NCBI GenBank assembly: GCA_013388895.1
Contig: JACAEK010000020.1
Location: 1 to 37,177, forward strand
From: Candidatus Bathyarchaeota archaeon
Lineage (GTDB): Archaea > Thermoproteota > Bathyarchaeia > Bathyarchaeales > Bathycorpusculaceae
Reading direction: 5' to 3'
Length of the DNA: 37,177 nt
Of the stretch, positions 1 to 26,410 are shown in pieces (the stretch's first letter is position 1; the number at the start of each line of letters is the position of its first letter). The position numbers were made by a program, and so were the translations under genes. The notes under the pieces were generated by a model. The model was not told the DNA's origin and made no database searches. It saw nothing but the letters and a program-made list of their open reading frames with translations.

Positions 1-186
1 CATTCCAGGAGTCTCCACCTATCTGAAATTAGCCCCAGTTTCCCGGGGTTGTTTCCGTCCCAAGGGCAGGTTAGCCACGTGTTACTGAGCTGTATGCCGC
101 GCCTCCAACATGGCTTAGAGGCGCACGACTAGCATGTCTTAGTCCCATCCCGATAGCAGTGGGGTCCGGCAGGATAAACCGGAGTT
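1..186 (-). rRNA. 16S rRNA, 5' portion (gene runs off the left edge)
   Basis: Read on the minus strand, the segment begins near 186 with AACTCCGGTTTATCCTGCC, the archaeal 16S start, followed by the usual GGACC, GACTAAGCCATG-like and AACACGTGG blocks of the 5' domain. One base in the universal forward-primer region reads TTT where most archaea have TTG. Only the first ~186 nt lie in the window; the rest of the rRNA operon continues to the left. Confidence 0.97.
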
Positions 187-18447: not shown

Positions 18448-18515
18448 CAAGATATGGATTGCCAATTCACAAACGATTTCTGTGTCCTAGGTATCACAGA
18501 TTTTGGGGTAACTAT

Positions 18516-19283
18516 ATGGAACATGTTCCCACCGGGATTGATGGTTTAGATAAAATGCTTAATGATGGTTTGCCAACTGGTCGCTGTATTCTAGTATGTG
18601 GTGGTCCGGGATCTGGTAAAACTATTCTTAGTATGCAATTTTTGCGTCATGGTGCGATTCAATGTAACGAGTCGGGTTTGTACGTTTCTCTTGACGAAGA
18701 TATAGGTCAGCTAAAAGAAGAAATGGCTGGTTTCGGATGGGACCTTGAGAAGTTAGAAGAGAAGGGAAAACTTGCAATCGTTGACGCTTCTCCTATTCGG
18801 CATATACCTAAAGAAGTCAAGGTTGGTGACTTATGGGTTGGGAAGAGAAATTTCAGCTCCCTAAGCCTCATAGAAATTGTCAAGAAAAATGTTGAGAAAA
18901 TTAATGCAAAACGTATCGTTATCGACCCAATCACCGCCCTAACACTTCAATACCCAGATATTTCAGAAAGACGAACAGCAATTCTAGACTTGTTTGAAGC
19001 TCTCTCAAATCTAGGAACAACCAACTTAATCACCACTGAGCTTAGAAGCGTCACATTAGAAAGGAAAATCCGCGCTGAAGAATTTCTGGCACATGGAGTC
19101 ATAGTGCTTCACGTTTTCATGAGTGACAAGGAAATTGTCAGAGGAATACAAATTGAAAAAATGCGTGGAATTGCTCATGACGATCAAATCCGCCCATATA
19201 AAATAACCGAAAAAGGCATAGAAGTATTTTCGCAGGAAAAATCGTTAATTGCGACTCCTATAACTTCAACTTTGCAGGTCTAA
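18516..19283 (+). CDS. Soluble KaiC-like RecA-fold ATPase, single domain
   Basis: A 255-residue KaiC/RadA-type ATPase. It opens with the family's VPTGIDGLDKMLNDGLP, has Walker A GGPGSGKT (29-36), SLDEDIGQLKEEM with the catalytic acidic pair, Walker B KRIVIDPITAL and the late IEKMRG strand. One domain only, unlike circadian KaiC with two, and no sensor partner is fused. I start at ATG 18516, preceded by GGGGT at 6 nt; the open frame extends to a TTG at 18459 but the family begins here. Archaeal homologues are linked to signalling and motility but their outputs are poorly known. It faces a membrane protein that ends in the same kind of domain. Confidence 0.88.
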   Translation: MEHVPTGIDGLDKMLNDGLPTGRCILVCGGPGSGKTILSMQFLRHGAIQCNESGLYVSLDEDIGQLKEEMAGFGWDLEKLEEKGKLAIVDASPIRHIPKEVKVGDLWVGKRNFSSLSLIEIVKKNVEKINAKRIVIDPITALTLQYPDISERRTAILDLFEALSNLGTTNLITTELRSVTLERKIRAEEFLAHGVIVLHVFMSDKEIVRGIQIEKMRGIAHDDQIRPYKITEKGIEVFSQEKSLIATPITSTLQV

Positions 19284-19337
19284 TCTTAGGGAAGAAAGAT
19301 TAGCCCATTTTCAGGGTTTATGTCAAACAATATCCAC

Positions 19338-21560
19338 TTATCGGAAGCGTTTCTTCCCCGCATTTTTTTTGATGCACAATCTTCGGATGGTTTTTTCTTG
19401 GCTTTTGCTTATGTCCAATTCAATTACGCAATCAACAACTTCTTCTAACCTATTTAAGAGGTTTGGCTGGATTGTCTCCTTACCTAACGTAAAAATAAAT
19501 GTGCCATTACCTCCTTTGATGCGCGCGCTGCGGTCTTGTAGGAATTCGACAACTTTCGACTGGTCAATATTGGTCAAAAGCGGCACTGTAGAGTCAAGGA
19601 ACACCCTAGAAGCACTAGCTCTTTCGCTTGTTGCTTTAGATATCATGATGCCTAAGTCAGATAATGAAAACGGCTGACTTACTGAATACTTTTCCTTTTT
19701 AGCAACTTGAGCAATTGAAGAAAAGCAATCGATAAATGCGAATTTCCCTTCATTTTCGTAGTTAGATGTTTTCCAATGGAACTTTCCCATGTTATCTCGT
19801 ACTTCGTCTGGAAAACCATCGTACGTTATGTATATGCAATGCTTTCCCTGATTCAAAGATGTGTGGGTTAACTGTTGGCACAGGACGCTTTTTCCTGAGC
19901 CAGGTCCGCCAATTATCAAAACAGAGAACGAGTCAGGAATACCTCCATTGGTAATCTTGTCAAAGAAGCTGAAATCTCGGAATTTCTGAAGTTTGTTTTT
20001 TCGTTTCCAAGAGATTCCCAAAACAAGAAGCAAAATAGGCGGAACAGTGGTTATAAGAATCCAATTCCAATCTAATGGGAACGAAGAAGCTGATACTTCG
20101 CGAACTCTTGCAGTGTCACCAATGTAAGTGTTGTCAAGTACGTCACTTTCACCGGGAACAGTGTCCGCCGTAGCTTTGATCAGAAAGATATTGGTTTGGG
20201 TTATGTCTGATGTGTTCCATTGAAAATTTAGAATCAGTTCAGCGTTAGAAGCTAAATTTAACACAAGTTGAGTGCCTATTAGGGTTTCATTTCTGAACAC
20301 GGTTACATTGAATGATTCTGTTACTGTTCCTTCATTTTTCGCAGTGACAGTTATGTTCACGACTTGGCCGATATACACATCGTCTTGAGAATTTACATTG
20401 AGGATTGCAATGTCGTGTATGTTTACAGAAATTCCATGAAGTTGCGAGGCGCTGTAACCGTCGTTGTCTACCACTGTTAAAGTCACATTATAGTTTCCAT
20501 GCATAGTATAGATGTGCGACAGTGCAGTTTCACTAGTTACTGTTATATTTGCATCTCCAAAATTCCATTCATAGTTGACAATTGCACCGTCAGGGTCATA
20601 TGATGAAGAAGCGTTGAAAACTACTGTTTCGTTGACTACAGGTTGTTCAGGCTTGTAGCTGAATGAAGCAACAGGCTGTCTAATCCCTCGGATTCTTATT
20701 GTTTTTGTTGTGGAGTTTGTTAATCCGTGGCTGTCTGCCACCGTTAATGAGACATTGTAGGATCCTGACATTGTATAATAATGCAAGATTATTGGACCAG
20801 TTTCGTTCACTGTTGGTGTGGCGTCTCCGAAGTTCCAAGCGTATTTTGTGATAGAACTGTTATATGAGTAAGAGGTTGTTGCGTTGAAGGTTATTGATTG
20901 ATTTATGAGGGGATCTTCTGGAGTATAGGAAAAACCTGCAACTGGCAGCTTTGGAGGTTCATAATTGATTTCGAGTTTTGCCGCCGAGTTTGGGTTGTAG
21001 TCCCAAGACCAAACTTCGTGTCCCACGGCGTCGCCTGATTGAAGCTTGATTCTTAAACCAATATAACTTCCAACGGTGTACCCAGGTCTGTCTACGTATG
21101 CTTGCACTACAGTCTTAAGATCTGTAGATATATACCACGTGTTAGGTAAGAATTGTTCTGGTAACCGCCAGTCAACAAATTCGCTCATGACTTGCCAACC
21201 CCAGAAGTTCGTGTCGAAATCATCACAGGAATCTTGATCAAATGCTTCTATTCTGACAGTGGTATTTGCTCCGTTTACCTGGTTTTTGGCTCTGCAAATG
21301 AAATTAGTGCTGATTATTGTGGCTCCTTTGGGGATGTCAATTCGCCATCTGCATCCAGTTATAATGTCGGGCGCTGAAAGGTAATATTGATCCGTATCCC
21401 ATTTTACATCATCAACCTTGCTCCACGCGTCATCCTTAGAAGCTTCAACCACATACGTAATGAGCGTCGAGGCAGCAGCTTTAAAACTTGAAGAAAAATA
21501 GAAAAAATTGAACCAAAAAAGAATTAAGATAAAGCTTACTATGAAGAGTTTCTTTAGCAT
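19338..21560 (-). CDS. Transmembrane PKD/CARDB protein with cytoplasmic KaiC-like ATPase domain
   Basis: About 740 residues in an uncommon order. 1-31: signal peptide (KKLFIVSFILILFWFNFFYF). 32-200: beta-rich secreted domain with an AYVDRPGYTVGSYIGLRI segment. 207-290 and 296-379: two PKD domains, each with WNFGD and a final YNVxLTV strand. 384-482: CARDB-like domain (VVNITVTAKNEGTVTESF). 496-517: membrane helix followed by WKRKNK. 530-735: RecA-fold domain with Walker A GGPGSGKS (551-558) and Walker B RVFLDST. Many N-x-S/T sequons lie outside only. The usual catalytic Glu after strand 2 is changed (ITYDGFPDEV). I infer a receptor that passes an outside signal to an ATP-binding domain inside. 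ATG 21560 is chosen for its clean signal peptide; the frame is open to 21611. Confidence 0.85.
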   Translation of the reverse strand: MLKKLFIVSFILILFWFNFFYFSSSFKAAASTLITYVVEASKDDAWSKVDDVKWDTDQYYLSAPDIITGCRWRIDIPKGATIISTNFICRAKNQVNGANTTVRIEAFDQDSCDDFDTNFWGWQVMSEFVDWRLPEQFLPNTWYISTDLKTVVQAYVDRPGYTVGSYIGLRIKLQSGDAVGHEVWSWDYNPNSAAKLEINYEPPKLPVAGFSYTPEDPLINQSITFNATTSYSYNSSITKYAWNFGDATPTVNETGPIILHYYTMSGSYNVSLTVADSHGLTNSTTKTIRIRGIRQPVASFSYKPEQPVVNETVVFNASSSYDPDGAIVNYEWNFGDANITVTSETALSHIYTMHGNYNVTLTVVDNDGYSASQLHGISVNIHDIAILNVNSQDDVYIGQVVNITVTAKNEGTVTESFNVTVFRNETLIGTQLVLNLASNAELILNFQWNTSDITQTNIFLIKATADTVPGESDVLDNTYIGDTARVREVSASSFPLDWNWILITTVPPILLLVLGISWKRKNKLQKFRDFSFFDKITNGGIPDSFSVLIIGGPGSGKSVLCQQLTHTSLNQGKHCIYITYDGFPDEVRDNMGKFHWKTSNYENEGKFAFIDCFSSIAQVAKKEKYSVSQPFSLSDLGIMISKATSERASASRVFLDSTVPLLTNIDQSKVVEFLQDRSARIKGGNGTFIFTLGKETIQPNLLNRLEEVVDCVIELDISKSQEKTIRRLCIKKNAGKKRFR

Positions 21561-21695
21561 TGGCCTAACCGTCTTCTGATTCTCAGCACAACTTAATCGT
21601 TCTGGCATCAAAAGCGTTTTGAAGTAAAAATTAGTATTGCAAATTCAGGTTACACTTGCATATTCTTCGAAACTTGCTGATTCCATCCTTTAAAA

Positions 21696-22013
21696 GGCGA
21701 TGGGTCACTGGGGTTCGACATTCAGAATCCGCCTAGCCCTCAAACCCTACACTCGTACCCGCACCCCCTTGAGCGCCAAACGTCCAGACTTAGGTTGCTC
21801 CCTCCCGGGCCTGGCCAGATTCACCTGGTAAACGTTGGAGACGGCTTCCCTACGGAAGCTGCCCAACAACCGCCAGCCCCAAGGGACGGATAGTCTTCGT
21901 TTCGGAAATGAGGGTCTCAGCGACCTTAAACGCCTCAGCCTCAGCTGTCAGCCCGTCCTATAGAGGGTTTACGGTACAAGGGACCCCTAGCCCCCCGCCT
22001 AAGCCCCACCGCC
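21696..22013 (-). ncRNA. ffs: SRP RNA (7S RNA)
   Basis: A 318-nt archaeal signal recognition particle RNA. Helix 8 is unmistakable at 21793-21816: GGCCAGGCC, then CCGGGAGG with a GGGA tetraloop, then GAGCAACC, the SRP54-binding site. The ends are set by perfect helix 1 pairing: GGCGGTGGG (22013-22005) with CCCATCGCC (21704-21696), followed by TTTT. The length matches archaeal 7S RNAs (~300-320 nt). A TATA box lies ~29 bp upstream. A 67-codon reading frame inside it on the plus strand is not a gene. Confidence 0.95.
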
Positions 22014-24401: not shown

Positions 24402-25364
24402 TTGAAAACGATAGGTGTAGTTACTAGCGGTGGAGACGCGCCAGGAATGAACGCAGCTATCCGTGCTGTTGTTCGTATTGCCTATTCGAAAGGTCTCAAC
24501 GTTTTAGGCTTCGAAAAAGGTTGGGAAGGTCTAATGTCAAACACTTTTCGAGAGTTAACTCCCCGTTCAGTAGGTGGCATAATAAATTTGGGCGGCACAA
24601 TTCTTCTGACTTCAAGGTGCCAAGAATTTAGAGCAAAGAATGGTACAAAAAAAGCTGCTGAGACGTTGGACTTGAACAATGTTGAAGGGTTTGTGGTCAT
24701 TGGCGGCGATGGTTCTTTTAAAGGAGCATGCGAATTGAGCAATGAAACTGATGCGTTAATAGTTGGCATCCCTGCAACAATAGACAATGACGTTTTTGGC
24801 ACAGACGAAACCATAGGCTTTGACACAGCGGTAAATACGGCGGTTGCAGAAATCGACAAAATCCGAGACACAGCCATCTCCCATGAGAGAATTTTCATCG
24901 TCGAAGTCATGGGACGAACAAGAGGGTTCCTCGCATCAACTGTGGGCTTAACAGTAGGCGCCGAAGTGATTCTTGTACCAGAAGAAAAATACAATATAGA
25001 AGAAACCCTCAAAACCATAAAGGCGAACACTGCAAAAGGAAAACGATCCGGCATAATCGTTGCTGCAGAAGGCGTTGGAGACACACAGAAACTTGCAGAA
25101 GAAATCGAAAAACACACAGACGCTGATGTAAAACTCAGTATTCTGGGCTATGTTCAAAGAGGCGGCAACCCAACAGCCCGAAGTCGACTCTTGGCTAGTC
25201 TTTTCGCCGACGAAGCTGTTCGGCTGCTATTGCAAGAGCAAAGAAGCAGAATAGTTGGGCTGCAAAATGGCAAAATAACAAACATAGACCTCAAGAAATC
25301 GTGCGAAACACGGAAGCCTTTGGACTTAAGCCTGCTGAAGCTGGCAAGGGTGCTTGCCACATAA
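24402..25364 (+). CDS. pfkA: 6-phosphofructokinase, ATP-type signature
   Basis: A 320-residue PfkA-family enzyme phosphorylating fructose 6-phosphate. Motifs: TSGGDAPGMNAAIRA, GGDGS (101-105, Gly104), IPATIDND (catalytic Asp in TIDND), and EVMGRTRGFLA. Gly at 104, and Ala rather than Lys before TIDND, are the ATP-using signature. The length equals bacterial ATP-PFK (~320). Most archaea use ADP-dependent glucokinase/PFK of a different fold, so a bacterial-type enzyme here is notable and probably acquired by transfer. TTG start with GAGGG 9 nt upstream. It converges with a second PFK 17 bp away. Confidence 0.9.
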   Translation: MKTIGVVTSGGDAPGMNAAIRAVVRIAYSKGLNVLGFEKGWEGLMSNTFRELTPRSVGGIINLGGTILLTSRCQEFRAKNGTKKAAETLDLNNVEGFVVIGGDGSFKGACELSNETDALIVGIPATIDNDVFGTDETIGFDTAVNTAVAEIDKIRDTAISHERIFIVEVMGRTRGFLASTVGLTVGAEVILVPEEKYNIEETLKTIKANTAKGKRSGIIVAAEGVGDTQKLAEEIEKHTDADVKLSILGYVQRGGNPTARSRLLASLFADEAVRLLLQEQRSRIVGLQNGKITNIDLKKSCETRKPLDLSLLKLARVLAT

Positions 25365-25381: not shown

Positions 25382-26410
25382 TTAACCGAAAAATACGCTT
25401 GCTATATCATATAACTCTAAATCCACGGTTTTTCTTTTTCCGACAACATCTTTCAATGGGACAGAAACAATCTTGTTCCCTCTAATGCCAACCATGTGAC
25501 CGAATTTTTTCTGCCTAACTAGATCTATTGCTGCTACTCCAAATCTTGTTGCTAATATTCTGTCGTAGGCTGTTGGAGAACCACCTCTTTGAAGGTGTCC
25601 CAGAACCACAACACGAGTTTCGATGTCAAGACTTTTTTCAATCTTTTTTCCCAGAAAATAGCCTACACCGCCTAGGCGTATGTGTCCAAACTCATCGATG
25701 CTTTCGCTGTACACAATTTCTTTTCCGCTTTTTGGTTTGGCGCCTTCAGCCACGATTATTATGCTAAAGTTTCTTCCTCTTTCTTGTCTGCGTTTGACAT
25801 AGCTGCAGATTTCACTTATTCTGAAAGGCTTTTCTGGGATTAGTATGCAATCTGCGCCTCCTGCTAATCCAGCTTCTAACGCTATCCAGCCTGTGTATCT
25901 TCCCATGACTTCGAGAATCATGACTCTGTGATGTGTTTCTGCTGTGGTGTGGAGTCTGTCAAGAGCCTCTGTTGCTATGGCTACGGCTGTGTTGAAACCA
26001 AACGTGTAATCTGTGCCAGCTAAATCGTTGTCAATTGTTTTGGGCACGCCCACACACTTAAGTCCATATTCGCTCATTTTGTGAGCAATGCTTAGAGTGT
26101 CATCACCGCCAATGACCACAACTGCGCCAATCTTTGCTTTTTCAGCATTTTTCATTATTTTCTCAGGTCCTTTTTCATGTTTGAAAGGATTTGTCCTCGA
26201 AGTGCCTAGAATTGAGCCTCCACGTGGAAGAATTCCAGATGCTGACTTCACGTCTAACGGTAGGAATTCATTTTCAAGCAGTCCATGCCATCCATCTTTT
26301 ATGCCAACAGTCTCGTAGCCGTAATTTTGAATGCCTTTTCTGACAACTGCTCTTATGACAGCGTTAATTCCTGGTGCGTCTCCGCCTCCACTTAATACTC
26401 CAACCTTCAC
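25382..26410 (-). CDS. pfp: 6-phosphofructokinase, pyrophosphate-type signature
   Basis: A 342-residue PfkA-family protein. GGDDT (101-105, Asp104) and VPKTIDND (Lys124) are the two residues that exclude ATP and favour pyrophosphate, so it probably runs fructose 6-phosphate + PPi = fructose 1,6-bisphosphate + Pi, reversibly. LEVMGRYTGWIAL and HLQRGGSPTAYDR (substrate binding) are also present. GTG start, 17 bp after the aldolase stop, so the two are likely one transcript and catalyse consecutive steps. It converges with the ATP-type paralogue, from which it differs by only ~20 residues in length. Confidence 0.9.
   Translation of the reverse strand: MKVGVLSGGGDAPGINAVIRAVVRKGIQNYGYETVGIKDGWHGLLENEFLPLDVKSASGILPRGGSILGTSRTNPFKHEKGPEKIMKNAEKAKIGAVVVIGGDDTLSIAHKMSEYGLKCVGVPKTIDNDLAGTDYTFGFNTAVAIATEALDRLHTTAETHHRVMILEVMGRYTGWIALEAGLAGGADCILIPEKPFRISEICSYVKRRQERGRNFSIIIVAEGAKPKSGKEIVYSESIDEFGHIRLGGVGYFLGKKIEKSLDIETRVVVLGHLQRGGSPTAYDRILATRFGVAAIDLVRQKKFGHMVGIRGNKIVSVPLKDVVGKRKTVDLELYDIASVFFG

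Follow-up and report, generated by a model that had tools for sequence, protein, structure and literature searches.

At one locus of a Candidatus Bathyarchaeota contig (JACAEK010000020.1; the whole stretch of 37,177 nucleotides that was analysed is called the window), one gene appears to join secreted domains, across a single membrane span, to an ATPase domain of the KaiC family. Two questions arise: whether such a gene is genuine, and whether its product acts alone, as a reading of the sequence without database searches had proposed, or together with another protein.

Domain organization of the receptor gene

On the minus strand, a TTG-started open reading frame extends from 19338 to 21611 (757 aa). 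The likely start of the receptor is the ATG at 21558-21560 (MLKKLFIVSF...), and the extent 19338-21560 and the motifs given in the sequence-only reading proved right. The features of the window are listed below.

19338-21560, minus strand: receptor-KaiC gene in its window reading frame, from the ATG at 21560 to the stop at 19338
21471-21560, minus strand: signal-peptide-like N-terminus (MLKKLFIVSFILILFWFNFFYF...AAA), from hydropathy
20943-21470, minus strand: N-terminal beta-rich domain of no database family
20682-20942, minus strand: PKD domain 1 (Pfam), WNFGD at 20823-20837
20445-20678, minus strand: PKD domain 2 (Pfam), WNFGD at 20553-20567
20160-20405, minus strand: CARDB-like domain (Pfam)
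20007-20063, minus strand: single transmembrane helix, residues 517-535
19977-20006, minus strand: basic stop-transfer KRKNKLQKFR, directly after the transmembrane segment
19365-19964, minus strand: cytoplasmic KaiC-like domain (PF06745; Pfam, AF2, Foldseek)
19887-19910, minus strand: Walker A GGPGSGKS, residues 568-575
19809-19823, minus strand: YDGFP in place of KaiC FEETP, the catalytic Glu pair (profile alignment)
19590-19607, minus strand: Walker B RVFLDS (motif in translation)
19363-19370, minus strand: A8 run, exit from the conserved C-terminal frame (comparison with orthologues)
19286-19362, minus strand: out-of-frame rest of the conserved C-terminus (MRGRNASDKWILFDINPENGLIFLP), ending with the stop codon 19286-19288
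18516-19283, plus strand: soluble single-domain canonical KaiC, convergent partner (220.8 bits; frame open from TTG at 18459)

Hydropathy and charge pattern gave the layout of a transmembrane receptor across the family: a signal peptide, extracellular domains, one transmembrane segment and a cytoplasmic basic flank, which in the window is the stop-transfer KRKNKLQK already recognized from the sequence. Pfam searches detected two copies of PKD_4 (8.3e-34), both with the WNFGD motif. The CARDB-like domain, also proposed earlier, gave a weak match: the window receptor scored 4e-4 and 21.0 bits, slightly below the cut-off of 22.7, and orthologues at two loci exceeded it (L087, 26.4 bits; L121, 35.2 bits). 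The N-terminal domain had no Pfam or NCBIfam match, and the class search yielded no family for it; within this class it otherwise occurs only in G134 (60% identity), whose receptor gene (L120, 3570-5521) is broken by a frame change inside that very domain. Its AF2 model was beta-rich at low confidence (pLDDT 63), in line with the secreted beta domain suggested before. A Foldseek search with this low-confidence model pointed weakly, at a TM of about 0.5, towards a TGF-beta-propeptide-like fold, on which we do not rely.

The window receptor ends with ...KKNAGKKRFR because the conserved frame is left at the A8 run; orthologues end with ...KKMRGRKxSxKWIxFEIDxKxGIVFLV. The last approximately 24 conserved residues lie in another frame beyond the run, and 2 nt separate the stop codon of this out-of-frame tail from the neighbouring gene's end. 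Either a sequencing error or a real late truncation could account for the frame change.

Immediately upstream of the receptor gene is the archaeal SRP RNA (21698-22011, minus strand), which is also found upstream at L087 (2795-3109). Further away, two adjacent convergent paralogues, phosphofructokinase-like by sequence (24402-25364, plus strand; 25382-26410, minus strand), are adjacent in L087 as well, and the contig end falls within an archaeal 16S rRNA gene (1-185, minus strand).

Catalytic residues of the receptor KaiC domain

Residues 550-749 of the receptor matched the KaiC family PF06745 with 1.1e-33 and 117 bits (cut-off 26.6), and the single-chain AF2 model of this domain reached a pLDDT of 90.5. 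In Foldseek the best PDB folds were PH0284 (2dr3; TM-score about 0.83) and the CI domain of KaiC (about 0.77, both by query length). The cytoplasmic part therefore belongs to the KaiC family by domain search as well as by fold, and the outcome that would have refuted the sequence-only reading, a cytoplasmic part of a non-KaiC family, did not come about.

In the profile alignment, YDGFP of the window receptor (the ITYDGF stretch) is placed against FEETP of KaiC, which contains the two catalytic Glu; the receptor profile reads ydaFP opposite FEETP of KaiC CI. The window receptor thus lacks the Glu pair that follows strand 2 in catalytically active KaiC, as had been noticed from the sequence. Among 54 receptor homologues, the second catalytic Glu is lost in 49 and kept in 5, whereas the Walker A Lys (49/54), the Walker B Asp-Ser (54/54), the Phe after this Glu position (50/54), the Pro that follows it (54/54) and the Lys of the C-terminal KxRG (53/54) are retained. 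With the catalytic Glu lost, ATP binding is likelier than hydrolysis, in agreement with the earlier suggestion. Judged from these residues, the receptor KaiC domain probably binds ATP without efficient turnover.

A soluble KaiC gene accompanies the receptor gene

The neighbouring gene on the plus strand encodes a soluble canonical KaiC. Only three KaiC-family genes of the window genome gave a clear full match, and two of them are this pair. In three other genomes of the family, and far beyond the family, the partner orthologue and the receptor gene likewise stand tail-to-tail. Scores of the partner profile over 257 genomes of the class were bimodal: 41 genomes carried a single copy each, scoring 364-411 bits, and the next score was 309. 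A receptor gene was present in all 41 partner-bearing genomes, although a few of these genes are cut off by contig ends or split by frameshifts. The two genes are convergent in 38 cases, co-directional in two (G145, G146) and unlinked by about 97 kb in one (G117). Gaps between the 35 tabulated convergent pairs range from -20 to +94 nt, with an overlap of exactly 4 nt in 15 of them. Against a joint function of the two proteins, convergent genes are not co-transcribed, and the conserved overlap could reflect antisense regulation.

The partner keeps its catalytic Glu, Lys, Arg and His in 38 of 38 sequences, and its catalytic site looks competent from these residues. Residues kept and lost thus suggest a receptor that binds ATP but turns it over poorly, beside a partner able to hydrolyse it. 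In the tree, the partner sequences of the class group in a single clade (support 0.995) with two close paralogues nested within it, and receptor and partner trees correlate with r = 0.92 in a mirror-tree comparison, a value that vertical descent alone also predicts.

The pair occurs in families f1, f4 and f10 to f15. Its distribution also speaks against a joint function: in f1, the family of the window, only four of 91 genomes have the pair, and roughly a dozen other receptor paralogues, most of them in f10, lack an adjacent soluble KaiC. Since the receptor is nearly always paired with a catalytically intact soluble KaiC, the system is better described as a two-gene module than as the single-protein device first proposed.

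Beside one receptor paralogue without a linked soluble KaiC lies a gene of about 258 aa that matches tetrapyrrole methylase (L132, 3204-3980); L227, L230 and L231 have a similar gene, judged by length and position only. At three f10 loci (L115, L117, L283) a soluble degenerate KaiC of the receptor clade is encoded near a separate protein with a signal peptide and a C-terminal transmembrane segment, and in L117 and L283 it lies downstream of that protein. This arrangement is possibly a split receptor.

Conservation of the receptor layout

The domain order of the window receptor is repeated in three other genomes of its family (G086, G051 and G052, at L087, L088 and L089). These receptors are 935 aa (G086) and 874 aa (G051 and G052) long and consist of a signal peptide, an N-terminal domain unlike that of the window receptor, PKD domains in two or three copies, a transmembrane segment and KaiC; CARDB is found in G086 only. 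Across the class, over 40 distinct homologues combine a signal peptide, a variable ectodomain, a transmembrane segment and KaiC. In the class-wide search, the KaiC-domain profile had matches at E <= 1e-20 in 78 of the 257 genomes, in some cases through short soluble proteins. We tabulated 54 distinct degenerate-KaiC loci, most of which have a signal-peptide-like N-terminus and a transmembrane segment immediately ahead of the KaiC domain. A scan of named genome contigs gave matches that were nearly all PKD domains.

Ectodomains vary strongly, whereas the KaiC domain and the partner are conserved. Between G051 and G052, dN/dS was 0.06 for the KaiC domain and 0.05 for the partner; a value of 0.11 was obtained for the N-terminal ectodomain and likewise for the whole protein. 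The receptor KaiC domains are monophyletic (support 0.992) save for two nested soluble paralogues.

Phylum-level surveys led us to reject the receptor form as a general archaeal feature. Among the phylum matches listed, those other than G350 and G311 were short soluble KaiCs. The long frames examined in the phylum of the Thermoplasmata locus G583 were cytoplasmic, mostly coiled-coil plus KaiC, with no transmembrane segment; in that of the Methanosarcinales locus G582 long frames were few, and the two examined contained no such segment.

The pairing persists when the attached domain changes

In G350, from another class of the phylum, a soluble KaiC gene is followed by a co-directional gene whose product joins a polytopic membrane part to a KaiC domain of the same degenerate clade. 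A related degenerate-KaiC subfamily carries an N-terminal winged-helix-like domain, with weak matches to Pfam HVO_A0114 below the cut-off (L273, L274). Its members, soluble degenerate KaiC proteins with this domain, are encoded at the following positions.

L273: 1396-2433
L274: 464-1525
L284: 2145-3182
L168: 4066-5166
also at L280 and L285

Genes of this subfamily are often convergent with a canonical KaiC paralogue of their own, at 5 nt in L273, L280 and L284 and at 103 nt in L274; in L285 and in G311 (another class) the two are co-directional. The G350 fusion and the winged-helix-like subfamily indicate that a degenerate and a canonical KaiC stay paired when the attached domain is swapped. 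The winged-helix-like protein is a possible output counterpart of the receptor.

Discussion

Taken together, the conserved linkage, the complementary catalytic residues and the receptor layout point to the receptor and its soluble KaiC as a previously undescribed two-protein transmembrane signalling system. On balance we favour a single-pass receptor with an ATP-binding, hydrolysis-poor KaiC end that works with the adjacent catalytic soluble KaiC. The receptor would span the membrane once, with a cytoplasmic KaiC domain that binds ATP and hydrolyses it poorly or not at all. Most likely this domain would dock on, cap or join a ring formed by its soluble counterpart. The state of the beta-rich ectodomain, set by a ligand, a surface or envelope contact, would then alter the assembly, ATPase or phosphorylation state of the partner, which in turn would hand the signal onward. 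From the data described above we infer signalling by the pair and, with it, the topology in cells, the binding of ATP, contact between the two proteins, the direction in which the signal travels, and a ligand and an output. More tentatively, and with considerable doubt, one may picture a system native to the class in which a KaiC ring takes the place of a phosphorelay, with variable receptors carrying dead KaiC domains, a canonical KaiC with which they communicate, and, as output to genes, a sister branch in which the dead KaiC carries a winged-helix-like domain.

The conserved pair could also work in the opposite direction, the soluble KaiC reading an internal state (ATP/ADP, time, nutrients) and altering an adhesive ectodomain, by clustering or exposure, through the receptor KaiC. 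PKD and CARDB are, like other beta domains, typical of adhesins, switching with nucleotide state is well known for KaiC proteins, and the ectodomains are highly variable compared with the conserved KaiC domain and partner; but the sister branch in G350, with its polytopic membrane part and no large ectodomain, fits control of adhesion less naturally, and we regard such inside-out control as unlikely. That the membrane KaiC instead provides a surface structure (S-layer, pilus or glycosylation machinery) with a ring or scaffold, the soluble KaiC being an assembly factor, appears distinctly unlikely: the pair is not consistently accompanied by a third gene of a surface machine, and in the window it sits between galT-like and glycogen-metabolism genes and the SRP RNA. 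Such a role would nevertheless resemble that of ArlH, which in the archaellum motor forms a KaiC-like ring that binds ATP (PMC8978795); KaiC genes are often close to type IV pilus loci (PMC4858521), and surface-related genes, such as those for glycosyltransferases or an exosortase, adjoin some of our loci.

Two further explanations concern the gene order itself. If the tail-to-tail order served only antisense control or shared termination, as the recurrent exact 4 nt overlap might suggest, the two proteins could belong to unrelated pathways. However, G117, where the genes are unlinked, and G145, G146 and the G350 variant, where they are co-directional, also carry both, which makes an effect at the RNA level only very improbable. 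We give next to no credence to an assembly join or a gene-calling artefact of two genes. The assembly is of the fragmented metagenome type (58 contigs) and there is a frameshift near the 3' end of the receptor gene, but the same order recurs in many independent genomes, under strong purifying selection and with a consistent transmembrane segment and basic flank. These homologues, found in the genome survey that the sequence-only reading had called for, rule out the join. Of its overall interpretation, the membership in the KaiC family, the receptor-like layout, the conserved order and the loss of the Glu stand, and the wording of a single protein is not supported.

Comparison with known systems

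The closest solved folds, PH0284 (PDB 2dr3) and the CI domain of cyanobacterial KaiC, belong to soluble proteins, and KaiC CI carries the Glu pair in FEETP. The window protein reached only 39 bits with the circadian KaiC model TIGR02655 (cut-off 546) and has one KaiC domain instead of two in tandem. DUF7504 (PF24336) is likewise a degenerate KaiC-like domain and was matched with 46.5 bits (cut-off 27), but it is a family of unknown function. A functional parallel is ArlH (FlaH) of the archaellum, a KaiC-like protein at the membrane that binds but does not hydrolyse ATP and modulates the ATPase of its partner (PMC8978795). Unlike the receptor, ArlH is soluble, is encoded in arl operons and has ArlI as its partner, and the ArlH equivalog NF052589 scored 51.6 bits against a cut-off of 215. 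In its working principle the pair resembles two-component histidine kinase receptors, which also combine a variable sensor, a membrane span and a conserved cytoplasmic transmitter with a cytoplasmic partner; there is no homology, however, and the receptor has no phosphotransfer domains.

To our knowledge, archaeal KaiC families are expanded and few of their partners are known. Makarova, Galperin and Koonin (2017; cited in PMC5847659 and PMC6393860) proposed that KaiC-like ATPases, together with their inactivated homologues (iKaiC), serve as signal hubs in archaea. As the citing papers describe it, the definition fits the window receptor, in which a degenerate KaiC domain is joined to an input domain and whose gene is linked to that of an active KaiC. 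It shares with the iKaiC hubs the KaiC-family domain, the degenerate copies, the fusion to input domains and the expected partnership with an active KaiC; it differs in that the pair is defined and linked, the receptor is a transmembrane protein with an extracellular sensor, and its distribution is mainly confined to one class. In a full-text search of the open-access literature, no receptor-KaiC fusion of this type was recognized in the titles and abstracts, and relative to the 2017 proposal, as far as its citing papers convey it, the paired transmembrane receptor appears to be new. The receptor and its soluble KaiC are a concrete candidate for the second component of KaiC signalling, and by supplying such a candidate the conserved pair makes the proposed role of KaiC as a signal hub directly testable.
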